Source: Armatimonadota bacterium (lineage in GTDB: Bacteria; Armatimonadota; UBA5829; DTLH01). Taken from it: a stretch of DNA of 64,000 nucleotides. Under the pieces are notes generated by a model. The model had not been told where the DNA came from. It saw nothing but the letters and a program-made list of their open reading frames with translations, and did no database searches. Below are positions 37,120-45,865 of this stretch, one piece after another (the stretch's first letter is position 1; each line of letters starts with the position of its first letter). The stretch spans positions 1 to 64,000 of the forward strand of contig JAKPFN010000046.1 of NCBI GenBank assembly GCA_029551395.1, given 5' to 3'. The position numbers and the translations under genes are program-made.

Positions 37120-38799
37120 TTAGCCTGATTGTTTGTTAATGTCCGTCAATCGCTGTTCAGCTATAGGAGACCAGTCGGGGTCGAACAGCAGCGGATCTTC
37201 GGCTACCTTCCGATAAAAAGATTTAGCCTGCTCAGGATTGGATGATGCCAGCCTGTCTCCCTGGTTGATGTAGATTTCACATAATCGTTTTCTGGCAGCC
37301 TGAGCGAAGTCGTCATTACCTCCTGTTTCGATGGCCTTTCGTAATTCGGCATCATATGTAGAGTAACCAAGGTAATGGTCAGCTATTCCCAGATAGTAGT
37401 GACCAGCAGAGTATGTAGGGTCAGCGTCAACAGTCCAGCTTGCATATTGCTTTAGTGACCTATATTGGCGCTGCTCAAGAGATTTTCCTGCCAGATCTGC
37501 GTATACATGAGCAAGCCGTCTGCGTGCCTCTGCACCTGCTTTTCCTGTACCTGCAGCCCTTTTTGCATTGTTGTACTGAACAAGAGCATCATCCACTCTG
37601 CCTTCTTTCATCAGCTTGTCACCCTGGCTGATGTATTTAGTGACGATTCGAGTCCGGGTCTGTTCGTCATACTTTGAATAGGCTTCGGTTACCATCCAAA
37701 TAGCAAGTAAAAGCAAACCGGTCAGGCTGAGAACAATGAAAAGTGTTCCTAAGAATGCTCTTGTTTCCGGCGACATTCCTTTTCTTTGTGGAATCGGTGT
37801 CGGTACAGGTGACGATGGTACCGATTGAGCAAACGGATCAGGAACATATTGCCCTCCTGAAGGTGATGGAGGAGGGGAATATGTGGTTGGCGGCGCATAC
37901 GTTGTCGGTGGCGAGCCTGTGCCGTAGGTTGTCATAATGCCCTGCGGCATAGGTGGGCTGTAAGGGTCGGAATATAGAGTTGCTCCATTGGCAGGTTCTT
38001 GCTTCAGAGCATCAGCCATTTCTTCCACAGACTGGAACCGCATATTGGGGTCTTTGGCCATAGCTTTTCTGATAATAGCTACCAGGTGAGGCTGGACTCC
38101 AGGTGGCGGAGGCGGTTCTGAGTTCATAATATTGTAGGTGATAGTGACTACCGTATCACCAGCAAACGGTTTCTGGCCGGTAAGCATTTCATAAAGCAGC
38201 ACACCGAGCGAAAAAATGTCAGAGCGGCCGTCAATATTCCTGCCGGAAACCTGCTCTGGAGACATATAGCTTGGAGTGCCAAAGACCTGTCCGTTGGCTG
38301 TGATAGATGGTTCTGACATTATTCTGGCGATGCCAAAATCAGTCAGCTTAACGTGCCCGCCAGGTAATATCTGAACATTTTCAGGCTTAACATCCCGGTG
38401 GACTATATTATTCTGATGTGCCAGTGCCAGTGCTTCACAAAGCTGTAATGTAATGTCTACAGCATCCTTAACAGGTAGAGCGCCACGAGCTTTGATAGTG
38501 TCTCGAAGAGTCTGACCTCCCAGAAACTCCATTGCGATGAAGAACCGGTCACCTTCCTGACCTATTTCGTAGACTGTCACGATATTCGGGTGTTCCAGAC
38601 GTGCAGCAGCCTTGCCTTCGCGCATAAAACGCTCGATACGTTCGCGTTTTTGTGCGCCATCGATGTTGGGAGGAAAGTACAACTCTTTGAGCGCGACGCG
38701 TCGGCCCAGCGTTGGGTCAGTCGCCTCGTAGACGATGTCGTTGCTCCTCGCAATCTCTCGTATTATCTGGTATTTTCCAAGAGTGTTGGTTGATTCCAC
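37120..38799 (-). CDS. Ser/Thr protein kinase with membrane anchor and TPR-like repeats
   Basis: A 559-aa Hanks-type kinase. The kinase domain (10-265) has Lys38 (VALKEL), Glu61, HRDVKPEN at 134-141 and DFGIA at 154-158; a GTPSYMSPEQ activation-loop end is present. A Pro/Thr/Tyr-rich linker leads to one transmembrane helix (FLGTLFIVLSLTGLLLLAIWM, about 353-373) and an extracytoplasmic helical-repeat region (about 390-555) with TPR-like spacing (VDDALVQYNNAKRAAG, AGHYYLGIADHYLG). Exceptionally, the glycine-rich ATP loop lacks glycine: IREIARSNDIVYEA instead of GxGxxGxVY. It lies 3 bases after the PP2C phosphatase gene; both belong to the FHA/VWA operon. GTG start with a weak ribosome-binding site. 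Confidence 0.93.
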   Translation of the reverse strand: MESTNTLGKYQIIREIARSNDIVYEATDPTLGRRVALKELYFPPNIDGAQKRERIERFMREGKAAARLEHPNIVTVYEIGQEGDRFFIAMEFLGGQTLRDTIKARGALPVKDAVDITLQLCEALALAHQNNIVHRDVKPENVQILPGGHVKLTDFGIARIMSEPSITANGQVFGTPSYMSPEQVSGRNIDGRSDIFSLGVLLYEMLTGQKPFAGDTVVTITYNIMNSEPPPPPGVQPHLVAIIRKAMAKDPNMRFQSVEEMADALKQEPANGATLYSDPYSPPMPQGIMTTYGTGSPPTTYAPPTTYSPPPSPSGGQYVPDPFAQSVPSSPVPTPIPQRKGMSPETRAFLGTLFIVLSLTGLLLLAIWMVTEAYSKYDEQTRTRIVTKYISQGDKLMKEGRVDDALVQYNNAKRAAGTGKAGAEARRRLAHVYADLAGKSLEQRQYRSLKQYASWTVDADPTYSAGHYYLGIADHYLGYSTYDAELRKAIETGGNDDFAQAARKRLCEIYINQGDRLASSNPEQAKSFYRKVAEDPLLFDPDWSPIAEQRLTDINKQSG

Positions 38800-38802
38800 A
38801 GG

Positions 38803-39765
38803 TTATCTAAAAAATCCAAAAAACCGTTTCTTTGGTGTATCGGGTTTAGGGTCAGTGTCGTAAATCTCTTCAGATTCAGCAGCCTCATCTTTCACAATAT
38901 CTTTTATTACTACGATCATCGCAGTGATATTGTCATTCCCACCGCGTTCGTTGGCTGCGTCTATCAGATCCATTGCAGCCTGTGACGGAGCATTGCCAGC
39001 TACAATGTCGCGAATATCAGTTTCGGATAAACTGCCAGAGAGTCCATCAGAACATAAAACAATTGTATCACCTGGTTGAATCTCCTCTGCAAATACATCC
39101 GGTTCTACTACGGGAAGATTGCCAAGAGACCGGGTTATTACATTCCTGAATGGTGACAACCGTGCTTCTTCTTCAGTCATGACGCCCCGGCGGACCTGTT
39201 CAGCTATCCATGAGTGGTCTTCTGTGATCTGTCTGATGTCTCGACCGCGTATCAAGTAAGCTCTGCTGTCTCCAACCTGTACGAAATATGCTGTGTCAGC
39301 CCTGATAACGACCGCTGTCAGCGTAGTTCCCATACCTGAGCGTTCGACGATCATTTGAGCTGCGTCATAAATTAGCTTGTTGGCATCGAACACCGCACGG
39401 GTCAAGCTGCCTACTACATCAGGTGAGGAATCTTCATAATATACCTTAATCACCCGCTTGAGTGCCATCTCACTGGCTATCTGTCCGGCTGCATGACCAC
39501 CCATACCATCTGCAACAGCATAGAACAGGCCTTTATTTGCAAGGATATCTGGATCTTCAGGCTCGAAAAAGTCGAATTTATCCTCATTGTTTTCCCGCAC
39601 ACAGCCAAGGTCGGTGCGAGCAGCCATTTTTATAACAGGATGGATATGTTTGGCTCGAGTAGCGAGCTTTTCCCATTCCTGAGAAAGCTCAGAAGGTTGA
39701 AGCTCAGCCGTTGTTTCTATGTCATCGCCTGTTACAACAGGTGTTGTTTCGTTTTCCTGGTTCAT
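38803..39765 (-). CDS. PP2C-family Ser/Thr phosphatase
   Basis: A 320-aa metal-dependent phosphatase of the PstP/Stp1 type. Metal-binding motifs are present: ARTDLGCVRENNEDKF (Arg and Asp), FYAVADGMGGHAAGQ, MGTTLTAVV, VQVGDSRAYLIR, DHSW, IVLCSDGLSGSL and GGNDNITAMIVV at the end. The N-terminal about 45 residues are an extension with two ETT motifs (ENETTPVV, IETTAEL), similar to sites phosphorylated by mycobacterial PknB. It should reverse the action of the kinase gene directly downstream. No membrane segment. Confidence 0.94.
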   Translation of the reverse strand: MNQENETTPVVTGDDIETTAELQPSELSQEWEKLATRAKHIHPVIKMAARTDLGCVRENNEDKFDFFEPEDPDILANKGLFYAVADGMGGHAAGQIASEMALKRVIKVYYEDSSPDVVGSLTRAVFDANKLIYDAAQMIVERSGMGTTLTAVVIRADTAYFVQVGDSRAYLIRGRDIRQITEDHSWIAEQVRRGVMTEEEARLSPFRNVITRSLGNLPVVEPDVFAEEIQPGDTIVLCSDGLSGSLSETDIRDIVAGNAPSQAAMDLIDAANERGGNDNITAMIVVIKDIVKDEAAESEEIYDTDPKPDTPKKRFFGFFR

Positions 39766-39780
39766 AATCCAGCCTTTCGT

Positions 39781-40494
39781 TTACATGGAGCCCATTTTAA
39801 CTACGCGAGTCCTGGTCAAACGGTCGTGAAGCATTCTGCCCTGGCTATCCCATATAGCGCAGAAAATCCCAACTATTGAAACAATAGCTGGTATCAAGGA
39901 CATTAGTCTGAGAATGGCAGCACGATAGTCCAGAGCTTCGCCATTGTAGCGAACAACGCCTATATCAAGAGAAGCCATTCCAGGAGTCTGTCCATTTTCT
40001 GCAAGACTGTGCACAAAATAGATAATCGTACCACCAGTAAATATGCTCCAGAATAAAACACGCGCCCAAGGCAATTCACCAGCACCAAGTGGCACTGTAG
40101 GATCACCGAACAAAAGCCAGAATGCCATCCAGAGTATAGTCAAAGCGCATCCGAGAATCAGAATGTCGATACCTGCTGCTATGGTTCTAATAAAAAATCC
40201 AGCAGGCTCCAATTGTGCAGGGACGACTACAGGAACATCTCTCAGGAGTTCATCTTCACTCGGGCGGTCGGCACATTCGTGACAGAATGAATCACCATCA
40301 ATGAACTCCTCACATGCCTCGCATAACTCCAGACCACAGGCGCGGCAAGTACTGACTGCAAAACGCCACGGATGGTTGGCACATACCTGTTCATTGACAA
40401 CTAACCTGGATTGCAGTCCCCAACCGCACACTATGCACTTTTCAGCGTCTGGCTCGTTCTCGGCGCCGCATTTTGAGCATTTCATATTCTGCAT
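39781..40494 (-). CDS. RDD-family membrane protein with two zinc modules
   Basis: A 237-aa protein. A zinc ribbon (CSKCG...CIVCG, about 5-24) and a B-box-like module (CANHP...CRACGLELCEACE...CHEC, about 38-77) precede an RDD membrane domain with three hydrophobic helices (about 105-127, 143-165, 200-220); the RDD signature is seen as GFFIRTIAAGIDILIL...QTPGMASLDIGVV...MLHDRLTRTRVV. Its role is unknown. Zinc modules may recruit proteins of the same locus to the membrane. The gene lies 15 bases upstream of the PP2C gene in the operon, and AAGGA precedes its ATG. Confidence 0.85.
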   Translation of the reverse strand: MQNMKCSKCGAENEPDAEKCIVCGWGLQSRLVVNEQVCANHPWRFAVSTCRACGLELCEACEEFIDGDSFCHECADRPSEDELLRDVPVVVPAQLEPAGFFIRTIAAGIDILILGCALTILWMAFWLLFGDPTVPLGAGELPWARVLFWSIFTGGTIIYFVHSLAENGQTPGMASLDIGVVRYNGEALDYRAAILRLMSLIPAIVSIVGIFCAIWDSQGRMLHDRLTRTRVVKMGSM

Positions 40495-40502
40495 TCTGTT
40501 CC

Positions 40503-41564
40503 TTAGACAGTGAATCTGAATGACACCTGAGCAAATGTTACCATATCGCCGTCGTTTAACTGGCGAGGTTGGTTTGGTTCCAGCTTTTCTCCATTAACAA
40601 ATGTTCCATTGGTACTCCCGATATCGGTCAGCGTAAACGTTCCATCTTCTGCTGTTATCACAGCATGGCTGCCGGAGACATATGGATCTGCAATAGCTAT
40701 TTTATTAGTCGGTCTTCTGCCAATAGTATTCTCGCCAGGATGGATTTGAATAACATCTCCACCAGCCTCAGGTATGAGTCTGGCCAGTGAAGGTTCTTCT
40801 TCGTGTATCTCGACAGGCTGAACCGGTTCTTCAAGAGATTGTTCGGGTGTTGCAATAAACTCCGATTCAATATCCTGGCCGATTGACATTTCTACCTCTA
40901 CAGATTCTTCAGCAGCACTCTCCTGAACCTGTTCCATTTCAACAGGCGGATTCATCGGTTCTTCTGCAGCTTGCTCTACGGCAATCGATTCTTCAGAATA
41001 TTCTTCTAACTCTTCAGCTTCTTCGACTTCCCTTGCTGATTCGGCTGAAGCGATTGCCTGGTCACTAGCCGGAGCTTCAAACCTGAGCACTGTCGACCCG
41101 AACCGAATCTCCATCCCTGAAGTCACTTCCACTGGCTGGCCTGGTTCAACCTTCTTATCACCTGCATAAGTCCCGTTGGTACTGCCAATGTCTTCCAATA
41201 AGTACTTACCATCTGCGACAGTAATCTTTGCATGCCTGCGGGAGACTGTAGGATGCATAACAAGAACATCGGTATTCTCTCTGCCTATCGTGTTTTCTCC
41301 CGGATTCAGAGTAAATTCACGTCCGCCGGTTGGTTCAATAAGCTTGGGCAAGGCCGGAGCAGGCTCAGGTGATTCTACAATCTCTTCAGGTGCTGATGAA
41401 AGCAGAAAACCACAATCAGAACAGTACTGCTCTCCTGCTGGTGTGGTAGTCTTGCAAATCGGACAGGTAACGCTAACGGCCATTTGAGTGGCTTCCACAC
41501 CCGGAGCAGGCATCATCTGCGTTGCATTATCGTTTGCGAGTTGAGTTTTTTCGATATCGTTCAT
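40503..41564 (-). CDS. Soluble double-FHA protein with zinc ribbon and TQ motifs
   Basis: A 353-aa adaptor. The first 30 residues hold three Thr-Gln-(Leu/Met) sites (EKTQLA, NATQMM, EATQMA), then a zinc ribbon CPICK...YCSDCG. Two canonical FHA domains (about 80-165 and 265-350) each have GRE/GRR, SRRHA / SGSHA and STNGT(Y/F). Between them lies a roughly 90-residue Glu-rich low-complexity linker. FHA domains bind phospho-threonine, so this protein can both read and present pThr. ATG 41564 with GGAG six bases upstream is preferred to ATG 41576. Confidence 0.9.
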   Translation of the reverse strand: MNDIEKTQLANDNATQMMPAPGVEATQMAVSVTCPICKTTTPAGEQYCSDCGFLLSSAPEEIVESPEPAPALPKLIEPTGGREFTLNPGENTIGRENTDVLVMHPTVSRRHAKITVADGKYLLEDIGSTNGTYAGDKKVEPGQPVEVTSGMEIRFGSTVLRFEAPASDQAIASAESAREVEEAEELEEYSEESIAVEQAAEEPMNPPVEMEQVQESAAEESVEVEMSIGQDIESEFIATPEQSLEEPVQPVEIHEEEPSLARLIPEAGGDVIQIHPGENTIGRRPTNKIAIADPYVSGSHAVITAEDGTFTLTDIGSTNGTFVNGEKLEPNQPRQLNDGDMVTFAQVSFRFTV

Positions 41565-41606
41565 GATTATCTCCATAGAACCGGTTACGCTCAGTAAGCC
41601 GATATT

Positions 41607-42977
41607 CTATTTAGCTCCTTTGCCTCTGTCGAGATTGTAGATGGTGCCGACAAGCGTCTTTTCAACACCAGCGCCCTGCTTGATGTTGTCGATAGCCTGC
41701 TGAATCTCCTGTGCCTGCAGTGTTTTGCCTTGCTGGACAAGGATAGACATTGTCCTTTCGAGCTCCTGGACTGCTGCGGCTGGTGAAATCTGCTGGGTGC
41801 GCATTCCCATAACTGTCCGCTCGAGATTTCTGGACGCAAGCGCAACTTCTATCTCCCGCTGAACCTGCTGGTTGACGTTTGCAGCAACCAGAGCTTCATC
41901 TGGTGTGAACTCAAGGACTACATCCTCTGTAAGCCGTTCAGCCCGGCCTGTAACTGAATCATCGTAAGTAACCTCAACCCTGGCAACCCGATAAGTGCCT
42001 GCAGGTCTGGGGCCAAACTCAAGTTCAACGAGCGCGCTCTCAGCGCTGCCTCTTTCAACGTCCGGCAGAGTAGTCTCAGCAGTTCGATTGCCGAATGTAG
42101 GCAAGTGACCATAAATCTGTCTGACCTGAACCCATCTGGAAAGGTTGATTCTCAGCTTTAGGTTGCGGGCAACCACCGTCATCAGAGTCTCAAGTTCTTT
42201 TCGGAAGACCTCAGGGATTAAATCAGGCCGGGTGATGTAGTAATAATTACCTCCAGCCTTTCGCGCGATTCCTGCCAGAAGTTCTTCATTGTATTCGTTG
42301 CCGAAACCGAGTGCTGTGATTGTTATACCTCGGCTTTTTTGCTCACCGACAAGCCCTACGATGGAACTGAAGTCTTTGATACCGGCAGTTGGGTCACCAT
42401 CAGTGAAAAGCAAAGCACGGTTAACGTAATTGCCGGAATAAACGCTTGCTATCTGGCTTGCACCGGCAGCGATGCCGTCGAAAAGGTTGGTGGTATTTCC
42501 TACATCAAGCCTGTTGATATGTTCCTTGATGAGCGCCTTGTTAATTACCTTTCGAGCAGGCATTATAACCTCTACACGCTCTTCAAATGCAACGATGGAA
42601 AGAACATCGTTTGGTTCCAACAGGTCTACAACGTAACCACAGGCACGTTTTACATATTCAAGAGGCTCGCCTTCCATCGAACCGCTGCGGTCGATGATAA
42701 GACACAGATTGAGCGGCATCCTTGCGCCACCCATCACATTACTTGCCATAAGACTGACAAGCAGATGCTCTCGCGATGCGCGAGTGGAAAGCGCATACTT
42801 ATTACCTGGAATGCACTGGAGAGTGATACCCTTTTGCGGTGGGCCTACCATCTGAGTTCTGGCAGGATCGAAACCTCCAGGACCAGTCATCTGCGTTTTA
42901 TATGGGTCCTGCTGCCCAAAATTGCCTACCTGTGTGCGGTTGTTGTCGAACGGCGGAATCATTTGTGTGCTATCCAT
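41607..42977 (-). CDS. VWA-domain protein with N-terminal TQ repeats
   Basis: A 456-aa protein. The N-terminus contains four Thr-Gln-(Met/Val) sites at Thr4, Thr15, Thr28 and Thr41, spaced 11-13 residues apart. The VWA domain (about 95-275) has the MIDAS DRSGSM, a TNLFDG threonine and FTDGDPT, followed by a beta-rich region and a helical C-terminus (QRE...LASRNLERTVMGMRTQQ). No transmembrane segment is seen, so it is a cytoplasmic MIDAS protein resembling TerY/YfbK-like members. It lies between two FHA genes in the kinase operon. GAGGG precedes the ATG. Confidence 0.92.
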   Translation of the reverse strand: MDSTQMIPPFDNNRTQVGNFGQQDPYKTQMTGPGGFDPARTQMVGPPQKGITLQCIPGNKYALSTRASREHLLVSLMASNVMGGARMPLNLCLIIDRSGSMEGEPLEYVKRACGYVVDLLEPNDVLSIVAFEERVEVIMPARKVINKALIKEHINRLDVGNTTNLFDGIAAGASQIASVYSGNYVNRALLFTDGDPTAGIKDFSSIVGLVGEQKSRGITITALGFGNEYNEELLAGIARKAGGNYYYITRPDLIPEVFRKELETLMTVVARNLKLRINLSRWVQVRQIYGHLPTFGNRTAETTLPDVERGSAESALVELEFGPRPAGTYRVARVEVTYDDSVTGRAERLTEDVVLEFTPDEALVAANVNQQVQREIEVALASRNLERTVMGMRTQQISPAAAVQELERTMSILVQQGKTLQAQEIQQAIDNIKQGAGVEKTLVGTIYNLDRGKGAK

Positions 42978-43045: not shown

Positions 43046-44512
43046 CTACGCTTCAAACCTAAACTTCGTGCTTCCTATCTGCACGGTATCACCGGTTTGC
43101 AGTATATGCTGGGTGATACGGTTGTTATTGACATGAGTGCCGTTGGCGCTGCCCATATCGTAAATAACGAACTGGCCACCTTCGTTTACGATTCTTGCAT
43201 GTTGCCTGGATACCGTATTATCGCTGCTTAACGATATAGTCCTATCCGACTGTCGGCCAATGGTTGTTTCCCCAACGAGTATCAGATTGAATACCTGATT
43301 TGCAAACGGTCCTGATATTGCAGTAAGTCTTGGTCCAGAACCTGCCTGTGTGCCTGCATTCAGCCCAACGGTCGGTTCCGAAATTGGTTGTGCAGCCTGC
43401 GTAGCTACAGTAGCCTGCATTGTTTGTTCTGCAGCAGTGTTGTTAGGCTGCATAGGCGGCGGGCTGCCGTTAACTGAACAAGAGCAGTTACCTGAAGCAT
43501 CTTTAATGCTTCCACAGAACGGGCAGATGTGCTGAGATGTTGGAATTCCCGATCCTGCTGTGCCGTAAAGGTCGTTCGACCTTGGGATTACTGACCGTGT
43601 TGCTTTATCTCGGAACAGCAGCTTTGTCATGCCTATCTGGATAATATCCCCATCCTTCAGCGTGTGCTGTTTGACCTTCTGCCCGTTGACAGATGTTCCG
43701 GCAAGCGTATTCAGGTCATGTAAAACATGCCTGTAGGGGTCTGCTTTTATCAGGAAATGCCTTGGTTCAACATCCGGGTCGCCGAAGATCGGTATATCAA
43801 CCAATTCATCCCTGCCGACAACAGTTTCAGGCTTATACACCAGGAATTCCTTACCTTCATTACGGCCTTTCAGATGAACAATAGAAGCCCGCTTGGTCAC
43901 TTCTTCTATGAAACCGATGAATAGTCCTGCGGAACCTGCAGTAATCATGAAACCAATCATTCTCAATAATTGCAAAGGAACGCTAAATATCCATAGGATT
44001 TGAAAAACAAACCCACCTACTGCACCACCGATGAATCCTCCGACAGCACCGTTGATCATTTTCTTGGTAGACTCGGTTGAAAGTCCTTGTGCCAGACCTG
44101 TAAAAAGCCCAATTAGCGCCCAGCCTGCTGTGCGGCCTATTAAGACAATAATAAAAGTCAAAGTATTTGGTGGGGCATCAGGATCATAACCTGAAAGCTT
44201 CAAAAGCGGTATATAGATCAACTGGTTGCCGAGAGAAAGCCCTAATGCACCGCCGACAGCGCCAACAGCAAGTCCAATAAATATGCTCTTGTACGCATCT
44301 TTCCGAGACACGCCGGACAATGCTTCGGCAAGCCCCAGCCCAAGGCCAAGAAACATGCCAAAAATCCCGCCGAGCGTTATCATCTGTGGGTATGTTAAGT
44401 CTCTATTACTCATATCACCGGATGGTGTAAGTGCCTCGATTGGTTCTACGATTATCCAGGCAATCAATCCACCCAGTGCAGCGAGTATAAGATATCGAGC
44501 AATTCTTGCCAA
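43046..44512 (-). CDS. Polytopic membrane protein with two FHA domains
   Basis: A 488-aa protein. About five to six transmembrane helices fill residues 5-205, rich in Gly/Ala (LGGIFGMFLGLGLGLAEAL and similar). A first FHA domain (about 220-300) has GRDE but EPRHF in place of SxxH. A zinc-knuckle CPFCGSIKDASGNCSC follows near 330, then a Pro/Gln/Thr linker and a canonical second FHA (about 400-488; GRQSDRTISL, SRQHA, SANGTHV). The layout suggests a membrane receptor for phospho-threonine proteins. TTG start with GGAG nine bases upstream. It lies between the VWA gene and another FHA protein gene. Confidence 0.88.
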   Translation of the reverse strand: MARIARYLILAALGGLIAWIIVEPIEALTPSGDMSNRDLTYPQMITLGGIFGMFLGLGLGLAEALSGVSRKDAYKSIFIGLAVGAVGGALGLSLGNQLIYIPLLKLSGYDPDAPPNTLTFIIVLIGRTAGWALIGLFTGLAQGLSTESTKKMINGAVGGFIGGAVGGFVFQILWIFSVPLQLLRMIGFMITAGSAGLFIGFIEEVTKRASIVHLKGRNEGKEFLVYKPETVVGRDELVDIPIFGDPDVEPRHFLIKADPYRHVLHDLNTLAGTSVNGQKVKQHTLKDGDIIQIGMTKLLFRDKATRSVIPRSNDLYGTAGSGIPTSQHICPFCGSIKDASGNCSCSVNGSPPPMQPNNTAAEQTMQATVATQAAQPISEPTVGLNAGTQAGSGPRLTAISGPFANQVFNLILVGETTIGRQSDRTISLSSDNTVSRQHARIVNEGGQFVIYDMGSANGTHVNNNRITQHILQTGDTVQIGSTKFRFEA

Positions 44513-44536: not shown

Positions 44537-45865
44537 TCAGACTTCGAATCTGAACTTGGTACTTCCTATCTGTATTTCATCACCAGGCTGCAACTGATGC
44601 CTTCCGGTGATGCGCATTCCATTGACATAAGTTCCGTTTGAACTGCCTTCATCGGTGATTGTAAATGAACCGTTTTCCTTTGCAATTCTTGCATGTCTAC
44701 GGGAAGCAGTATTGTCCTCTGGTAAAGCTATCTCATTGTCTGGGTCACGCCCTACAATAATGCTGTCACCAGATATCTCGAATATTCTGCTGGAATATTG
44801 ACCTTGAGTGCCTATCAACCTGGGTATTCCGATGGTGCCAGATGCAGGTGTGGCGGAAGATTGTGCATCTACACTGCAGGCACAATTGCCGGTTACAGGG
44901 TCTTTTCTCTGACCGCAGAACTGGCAGATATTTGGATCTATATGCTGTTGAGGTTCTGCTGCAGGGACAGTTCCGGCATCAGCAGTATCTTGTGGGAATT
45001 GCACTCCCAGCTTCCTCAGGCTGCTTTCAAAGCTGCCGCCTTTGGCTTTGATGATAACATAACCGATGAATCCTATCATCCCGATGATAGCAAGACCCAT
45101 AATATACTGCAGCCAGGCAAATGATGGTTGATCATCCTTTTTTGCTTTCGTAGGAGCAGGTTCGCCGTCCTCACTTACCGCAGCAGAATCGCTTGAAGCC
45201 ATAGCAGTCTTTACCTTTACAGTTCGGACTTTACCTGCTACTGGAACTTCCTCGACATAAATAGGCTCATCTCGTTCAGTCGGGATTTCAAGGTCAACCG
45301 TCATCCTTCGAGTTCCGTTGTATTGAACTTCGACACTGACAGCGCCGGCGGCAATATCATGAAACTCTGCGACTCCTTCTGACAGTGGGTCCACAAGAAC
45401 CGTAAAAACATCCGAGTTGGCATCGGTCAGCGTTACGACAGCAGACTCTAATCTCTCGTTTTCTTTGCCACTGGTTGGTTTTAGGACAACCTGAACAGTG
45501 CGGACGAGGTCGAAATCGGTATCTTTTAACTTGAGGTCTTTCTTATCCTGTAGATTCTCCAGATTTTTGGCTGCTACATTGCCGGTTTTCGGGTTGTAAA
45601 TCTTCAATGTGCCCTTTGGGAGCTTGCCTTCGACAGCGGTGAGTGCCAGATCGATGTTTGTATCGGCTCCGGCAGCGTGGACAGGGGCATTTAGCTTGAT
45701 TTTGCCTGCTTCATCTTCCAATTCAAGCCAGTAGATGTAACTGCCTTTCTCCGGGAATGTAACTTCAATGGTAGGATCAGCAATTAATGCGGTTGTCAGA
45801 AAGGAGAATGCAATTACAATCAGAACGGCTACTGCTTTTTGTCTCATATACTCATCCTTTATCAT
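44537..45865 (-). CDS. Exported/membrane FHA protein
   Basis: A 442-aa protein. A signal segment (AVAVLIVIAFSFLTTALIA) is followed by about 220 residues of beta-rich extracytoplasmic domain, then one transmembrane helix (about 255-275, YIMGLAIIGMIGFIGYVII), a zinc-knuckle CQFCGQRKDPVTGNCAC near 325 and a C-terminal FHA domain (GRDPDNEIAL, SRRHA, SSNGTYV). With the C-terminal part in the cytoplasm it could relay an envelope signal to pThr proteins. The ATG overlaps the upstream stop as ATGA. The outer domain has no family I recognise. Confidence 0.86.
   Translation of the reverse strand: MIKDEYMRQKAVAVLIVIAFSFLTTALIADPTIEVTFPEKGSYIYWLELEDEAGKIKLNAPVHAAGADTNIDLALTAVEGKLPKGTLKIYNPKTGNVAAKNLENLQDKKDLKLKDTDFDLVRTVQVVLKPTSGKENERLESAVVTLTDANSDVFTVLVDPLSEGVAEFHDIAAGAVSVEVQYNGTRRMTVDLEIPTERDEPIYVEEVPVAGKVRTVKVKTAMASSDSAAVSEDGEPAPTKAKKDDQPSFAWLQYIMGLAIIGMIGFIGYVIIKAKGGSFESSLRKLGVQFPQDTADAGTVPAAEPQQHIDPNICQFCGQRKDPVTGNCACSVDAQSSATPASGTIGIPRLIGTQGQYSSRIFEISGDSIIVGRDPDNEIALPEDNTASRRHARIAKENGSFTITDEGSSNGTYVNGMRITGRHQLQPGDEIQIGSTKFRFEV

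Follow-up and report, generated by a model that had tools for sequence, protein, structure and literature searches.

The ArnAB system, which tunes motility in the archaeon Sulfolobus acidocaldarius, is described as a phosphorylation-dependent protein pair in which the kinase ArnC phosphorylates clustered threonines that are bound by the forkhead-associated (FHA) domain of ArnA (PMC12852372), with individual sites described as redundant (PMC12852372, PMC6509490). Its authors note that the architecture is widespread and lies mostly outside such processes (PMC12852372). Here we analyse a locus in a 64,000-nucleotide stretch of DNA from an Armatimonadota bacterium (GenBank assembly GCA_029551395.1, contig JAKPFN010000046.1, positions 1 to 64,000; hereafter, the window), in which a VWA-domain protein (VWA) and a double-FHA protein with a zinc ribbon (ZnFHA) share a threonine motif, repeated in the disordered N-terminal tail of each.

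Judged by the fold of one partner and the architecture of the other, the locus appears to be a new variety of ArnAB-like module. It probably serves as a bacterial counterpart of the ArnA/ArnB switch, with phosphothreonine sites in the tails of both partners; we infer the phosphorylation, the kinase-substrate link, FHA binding and the output. A search of the open-access literature found no paper on this VWA/ZnFHA system.

Results

A threonine motif is repeated in the tails of VWA and ZnFHA

A first-pass annotation of the window, made from the letters and their open reading frames, had reported Thr-Gln-(Met/Val) at Thr4, 15, 28 and 41 of VWA and three Thr-Gln-hydrophobic sites near the start of the FHA protein. 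All were found: T4-Q-M, T15-Q-V, T28-Q-M and T41-Q-M in the VWA frame, and TQL, TQM and TQM in ZnFHA, at T11, T19 and T30 of the longest open reading frame (T7, T15 and T26 from an internal ATG), each N-terminal to the zinc ribbon. The internal ATG, at 41564 and four codons inside the listed frame 40503-41576, is probably the true start of ZnFHA, because it is preceded by a Shine-Dalgarno-like stretch. The motif copies are encoded by differing codons and are therefore not DNA-level duplications.

Across the 3.58 Mb host genome, a DNA pattern for three copies of TQ[MILVF] gave five matches and none in the control; three lie in the VWA and ZnFHA genes and two in paralogues that look flagellin-like by eye, where the match falls at about residue 114. 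The corresponding two-copy pattern is mostly background (52 matches against 35 in the control). Among the 30 of these 52 matches that were read, in-frame pairs within the first 30 residues occur in VWA and ZnFHA only, and in a FlgD-like protein a pair starts at residue 35. The clustering of the motif in VWA and ZnFHA exceeds chance.

Orthologues were sampled as one genome per genus from 88 genera, plus the window, with tail starts selected blind to the motif. The VWA count comprises 88 tails, excluding locus L185, where the regular expression for the metal ion-dependent adhesion site (MIDAS) was unmatched, and retaining L170 and L171 despite a wrong or missing start; the ZnFHA statistics comprise 47 of 51 proteins, since L145, L170, L185 and L207 have no recognised zinc ribbon. 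Absence of the motif from orthologues had been named in advance as grounds for abandoning the idea of a shared phospho-motif, and the opposite was found. In the VWA set, 202 copies of [KR]T.Φ (Φ, hydrophobic) are spread over 81 of the 88 tails, where shuffling gives a mean of 7.6 and a maximum of 16, and TQ is found 165 times against 31 in shuffles; copies are mostly spaced 7-15 residues apart, with a mode of 10-11. The ZnFHA tails contain 56 instances of TQΦ (6.6 expected) and 49 of [KR]T.Φ (3.4 expected).

Threonine is strongly preferred over serine at these positions. Although the VWA tails contain 208 serines, [KR]S.Φ was seen twice (3.5 expected), and PN[KR]T occurs 79 times with PN[KR]S at zero; in the ZnFHA tails the serine version occurs once, though 111 serines are present. 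Positions -2 to -4 include an acidic residue at 227 of 312 sites in VWA and at 97 of 135 in ZnFHA, compared with only 23 of 208 and 14 of 111 serines in the respective tails. Sites of Mycobacterium tuberculosis PknA are likewise described as enriched for acidic upstream residues (PMC7164672), and FHA domains are described as recognising phosphothreonine and mostly not phosphoserine (PMC6509490).

The Thr-Gln-hydrophobic form in which the motif had been proposed is thus present and enriched, but too narrow: glutamine at +1 is frequent without being obligatory (165 of 440 VWA tail threonines), and SQ is not enriched in these tails (7 against 12.9 expected). The broader consensus is D-P-N-[RK]-T-x-(M/A/I/L).

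The motif is confined to two families at linked and split loci

Beyond the host genome the three-copy TQ pattern proved unspecific, matching 69 of 251 Armatimonadota genomes with controls of the same order, and a doubled DPN[KR]T DNA pattern was adopted in its place. This gave 92 matches in 52 of the 251 genomes and none in the control. Coordinates place 41 of the matches in VWA and 40 in ZnFHA, and reading assigned four further matches to ZnFHA, for 85 of 92; the remaining seven, in five genomes, were unread. The window's own genome, where the flanks vary, does not match the pattern. In three other sets of sequences from the locus, namely 60 linkers of the membrane protein FHAb, 31 kinase juxtamembrane stretches and 36 PP2C tails, the motif stands at chance level, and a slight [KR]T.Φ excess (11 against 2.1) is seen in ZnFHA's own linker. 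The regulon, for which a genome scan had been proposed, looks to be limited to VWA and ZnFHA, with no wider set.

A further suggestion, that two ETT sites in the PP2C N-terminus belong with the GarA/OdhI kind, held in part. Both sites exist; only the second position is conserved, and in a different unit, TA[KRE][LFIV], which is found in 27 of 36 PP2C tails against 0.5 expected and never in a serine version. A GarA-like code shared by the PP2C was rejected on this basis. The hydrophobic +3 residue of the unit would be suitable in a ligand of FHA domains. In the window the conserved threonine of the PP2C tail, Thr19, has its codon at 39709-39711, within TAEL.

The locus is conserved across much of Armatimonadota. 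VWA and ZnFHA occur together in 152 of the 251 genomes, VWA alone in 5, ZnFHA alone in 2 and neither in 92, and, judging by losses in families f2, f4 and f16, the two seem to have been lost together on at least three separate occasions. The genes need not be adjacent: many of the 52 genomes with the doubled DPN[KR]T pattern, of Fimbriimonadia type, have VWA beside FHAa-FHAb at one locus and ZnFHA at another, with the kinase near neither. All 20 ZnFHA loci fetched from such split genomes retain the tail motif and contain no kinase in the fetched stretch; a PP2C is called at 15 of the 20, often following ZnFHA. Since both unlinked tails share the motif, local duplication is ruled out as its source.

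The two tails also co-vary in part. VWA and ZnFHA tails are correlated in TQ usage (rho 0.45) and in the number of sites (rho 0.40). In a permutation test of six features on 52 pairs (60 paired tails, less eight with fewer than two sites), only TQ and N[KR]T rose above permutation, the latter driven by Fimbriimonadia; Txx-G at +3 is suggestive only with Fimbriimonadia removed (39 pairs; 24 of 2000).

VWA has the ArnB fold and ZnFHA an ArnA-like architecture

The AlphaFold2 (AF2) model of VWA has a predicted local distance difference test (pLDDT) score of 86, with the tail at 41-52, a prediction of disorder. Its best structural match is ArnB of the ArnAB complex (8S05_A; Z 34.9, root-mean-square deviation 3.2, 372 of 381 residues aligned over model residues 49-454), followed by a Catenulispora vWA protein (Z 34.2) and ArnE/vWA2 (Z 31.7), and a supporting profile hit stands at 1.2e-16. 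The model contains the vWA domain, beta-sandwich and C-terminal helix bundle that define ArnB. This fold, which the first-pass annotation had missed, supplies a solved precedent. Two conserved threonines in the helix bundle, Thr388 and Thr441, resemble the tail unit and lie where ArnB is phosphorylated; they could be phosphosites or could simply serve the structure.

The ZnFHA model runs from a disordered tail through a zinc ribbon, an FHA domain, a helix and a linker to the second FHA domain. The zinc ribbon followed by FHA corresponds to ArnA on architecture only, with the second FHA domain as an addition. The FHA domains match structures of MDC1, FhaA, GarA, OdhI and DgcB, the MDC1 domain being the top match, and by sequence GarA ranks among the nearest solved FHA domains. 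The residues of both phosphothreonine pockets (R95, S108, H111 and N130; R283, S297, H300 and N319) are invariant in 34 of 34 ZnFHA orthologues, as are the four zinc-ribbon cysteines. Three orthologues (L176, L181 and L208) show, by eye, a J-domain-like fragment ahead of the zinc ribbon.

A kinase with a glycine-poor loop accompanies the pair

All 19 genomes examined that have the VWA-ZnFHA pair also have an orthologue of the window's Hanks-type kinase (E <= 1.2e-96), unlinked cases included. Seven of eight genomes without the pair have a best match of only 1e-16 to 1e-41. The eighth, G119, contains the orthologue on an 11 kb contig that breaks off at the adjacent PP2C; its pair may lie past the contig edge. 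The term "operon kinase" in the first-pass annotation is too narrow for the split genomes, where the gene is elsewhere and its orthologue is nevertheless kept.

Among 61 kinase rows, some of which are two copies of one gene, HRD and the loop from DFG to SPE are found throughout and VAxK in most. By sequence, the catalytic lysine, HRD, DFG and activation-loop threonine of an active Hanks kinase are all in place. The GxGxxG loop is not: nearly all rows where it is readable have I[AG]RSND[IV]V[YW]E. A DNA pattern for this loop occurs in at least 117 of 157 VWA genomes, a lower bound because TAT tyrosine codons are missed, and in five genomes without VWA (G071, G087, G093, G129 and G239). The glycine-poor-loop kinases would thus form a distinct subfamily, with a nearly invariant loop and intact Lys, HRD and DFG. 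The contig has a further kinase-family match outside the window, at G000:C43:71571-72065.

Organisation of the locus

All seven genes lie on the minus strand of the window, in the transcription order FHAa, FHAb, VWA, ZnFHA, Zn-ribbon/RDD protein, PP2C and Hanks-type kinase (Table 1). By eye, both membrane FHA proteins have a CPFCG...C.CS-type cysteine stretch before the last FHA domain, in the window and in the linkers of FHAb orthologues.

Table 1. Features of the VWA/ZnFHA locus, with positions in the window.
Feature	Position	Strand	Basis or remark
FHAa, membrane protein with one FHA domain, possible reader	44537..45865	-	Pfam
FHAb, membrane protein with two FHA domains, possible reader	43046..44512	-	Pfam; linker without tail motif
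VWA protein, 456 aa, ArnB fold	41607..42977	-	Pfam VWA 2.1e-22; AF2 model; 8S05_A Z 34.9
VWA domains: disordered N-tail 1-48; vWA 90-258; then beta-sandwich; C-terminal helix bundle			AF2 model
VWA Thr4 codon (TQM)	42966..42968	-	
VWA Thr15 codon (RTQV)	42933..42935	-	
VWA Thr28 codon (DPYKTQM)	42894..42896	-	
VWA Thr41 codon (DPARTQM), last tail site	42855..42857	-	Thr in 34/37 aligned orthologues
VWA Thr388 codon, [KR]T[VMIL]MG, C-terminal helix bundle (helix 370-393)	41814..41816	-	Thr in 37/37
VWA Thr441 codon, EKTLxG, C-terminal helix bundle (helix 439-451)	41655..41657	-	Thr in 36/37
ZnFHA, Zn-ribbon double-FHA protein, ArnA-like architecture, 353 aa from probable start ATG 41564	40503..41564	-	two FHA, Pfam 1.3e-42
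ZnFHA Thr7 codon (EKTQL)	41544..41546	-	
ZnFHA Thr15 codon (NATQM)	41520..41522	-	
ZnFHA Thr26 codon (EATQM), last tail site	41487..41489	-	Thr in 34/34 aligned orthologues
Zn-ribbon/RDD membrane protein, between ZnFHA and PP2C	39781..40494	-	absent from some orthologous loci
PP2C phosphatase, candidate eraser	38803..39765	-	Pfam PP2C 1.3e-14; conserved tail Thr19 in TAEL
Hanks-type kinase, candidate writer	37120..38799	-	Pfam Pkinase 8.8e-49; catalytic K, HRD, DFG present
Kinase P-loop RSNDIVYE, without usual second and third Gly	38725..38748	-	

Discussion

A conserved motif, its restriction to two families, the preference for threonine over serine and a co-retained kinase are what a shared kinase and FHA readers would predict. 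In the mechanism we propose, the membrane Hanks kinase would phosphorylate threonines clustered in the disordered tails at the N-termini of VWA and ZnFHA, and the FHA domains of ZnFHA, perhaps together with those of FHAa and FHAb, would bind the phosphorylated tails. VWA would thereby be joined to ZnFHA with a strength set by the number of occupied sites, the tail of ZnFHA itself could compete for the same FHA pockets in cis or in trans, and the PP2C would reverse the phosphorylation.

Several observations weigh against this mechanism. The constant hydrophobic residue of the motif sits at +2 and the +3 residue varies, while many FHA domains are described as requiring a specific residue at +3 (PMC6733907). 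The phosphothreonine sites of ArnB are in its C-terminal helix bundle, not in an N-terminal tail. The genome counts share phylogeny, so that p-values overstate independence, and the thresholds of the two-by-two tables were chosen after the data had been seen. Two of the four features expected to co-vary between the tails failed to do so, and outside Fimbriimonadia neither [KR]T nor N[KR]T usage is correlated between VWA and ZnFHA tails. Some VWA tails carry one site or zero, and family f25 (L185, L207 and L208) retains ZnFHA beside VWA with most motifs gone from both tails; its kinase is found at L185 and L207, and the RSND pattern lies elsewhere in the L208 genome. This pattern fits parallel loss of the motif, yet it shows that the tails are dispensable in f25.

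The best-surviving alternative accepts that the tails are phosphorylated and bound by FHA domains, and holds that ZnFHA reads only itself while FHAa/FHAb-type proteins read the VWA tail. The FHA domains of GarA, OdhI and DgcB are described as binding their own N-terminal phosphothreonine tails (PMC6733907), the ZnFHA model also matches N-terminal phosphopeptide complexes of DgcB and MDC1 in structure, and split genomes keep VWA beside FHAa-FHAb and not beside ZnFHA. We nevertheless regard this as unlikely, given the presence of ZnFHA in 152 of 157 VWA genomes, the correlated TQ usage and site number of the two tails, and the description of ArnB and ArnA as a direct pair (PMC12852372).

A second alternative, that a cellular Hanks kinase other than the operon-kinase orthologue writes the sites, would draw on the five Pkinase matches in the window's genome and on the distance of the kinase from both partners in split genomes. 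It seems quite unlikely to us: all eight pair-less genomes contain other kinase-family matches, and the operon-kinase orthologue is the one that is co-retained with the pair, being lacking in seven of these eight.

It is distinctly improbable that the motif is instead a short docking peptide and no phosphosite, with, for example, the Asp of DPN[KR]T ligating the MIDAS metal of VWA, or a motif bound by some other protein. Asp is the commonest -4 residue (155 of 440 VWA tail threonines) and MIDAS sites are described as binding acidic residues of their partners (PMC6509490); against this, Asp is missing from -4 at most threonines while the threonine is retained, the near-absence of serine is a constraint that docking does not demand, and the system includes a kinase, a phosphatase and intact FHA pockets. 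That the tails are functionless Gly/Pro/Asn-rich low-complexity sequence, with a repeat unit maintained by replication slippage, would suit their disorder and their variable length and copy number, but is hardly credible: codons differ between copies, two families that are neither linked nor related share the motif, three other disordered stretches of the locus show it only at chance frequency, and all 34 aligned ZnFHA orthologues keep the threonine of the last site.

The phosphorylation switch joining VWA to ZnFHA can be extended into a joint reading, which we put forward tentatively and hold to be possible at best. Here a phylum-wide ArnAB system would combine a private phospho-motif on both tails, a dedicated glycine-poor-loop kinase and up to five FHA readers (two in ZnFHA, two in FHAb and one in FHAa), whose cross-links with the tails would give a membrane-linked, valence-controlled assembly; the helix-bundle sites would be ancestral and ArnB-type, and the tails a later addition.

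Bacterial FHA-phosphothreonine signalling is known mostly from single-site switches. At this locus, sequence alone is enough to name two substrates, the motif code they carry, candidate readers and a kinase retained with the pair, and the solved archaeal complex offers a template. If the proposed mechanism is true, the ArnAB-type multi-phosphorylation switch would extend to bacteria and provide a clean case of binding strength set by clustered phosphothreonines together with several FHA domains. The mechanism also offers an initial proposal for what the locus does in this poorly studied phylum.

Among known systems, the closest is ArnA/ArnB with ArnC/ArnD and PP2A, which shares with this locus an ArnB-fold vWA protein, a zinc finger-FHA partner, a Hanks kinase, clustered threonines and a phosphatase. 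The locus described here is bacterial; its partner has two FHA domains instead of one, the repeated motif lies in the N-terminal disordered tails of both partners, the phosphatase is a PP2C and not PP2A, and two extra membrane FHA proteins are present. GarA/OdhI and DgcB share a disordered N-terminal tail with threonine sites ahead of an FHA domain. GarA and OdhI are single-FHA proteins with one ETT-type site in that tail, whereas ZnFHA has several motif copies without ETT, a zinc ribbon, a second FHA domain and a VWA partner. In MDC1, too, the FHA domain reads the protein's own N-terminal phosphothreonine peptide; that system is eukaryotic and has a single site, Thr4, which is followed by Gln and written by a PI3K-like kinase. 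The SQ/TQ cluster domains of the Rad53/Chk2 type place clustered TQ in a disordered stretch and have FHA readers; the VWA tails differ from them in the lack of SQ enrichment and in having Gln after only a minority of threonines. Finally, TerY-type triads, compared by description only, bring VWA, PP2C and kinase genes together, whereas in the Armatimonadota locus the FHA proteins and the motif-bearing tails form the core of the system.

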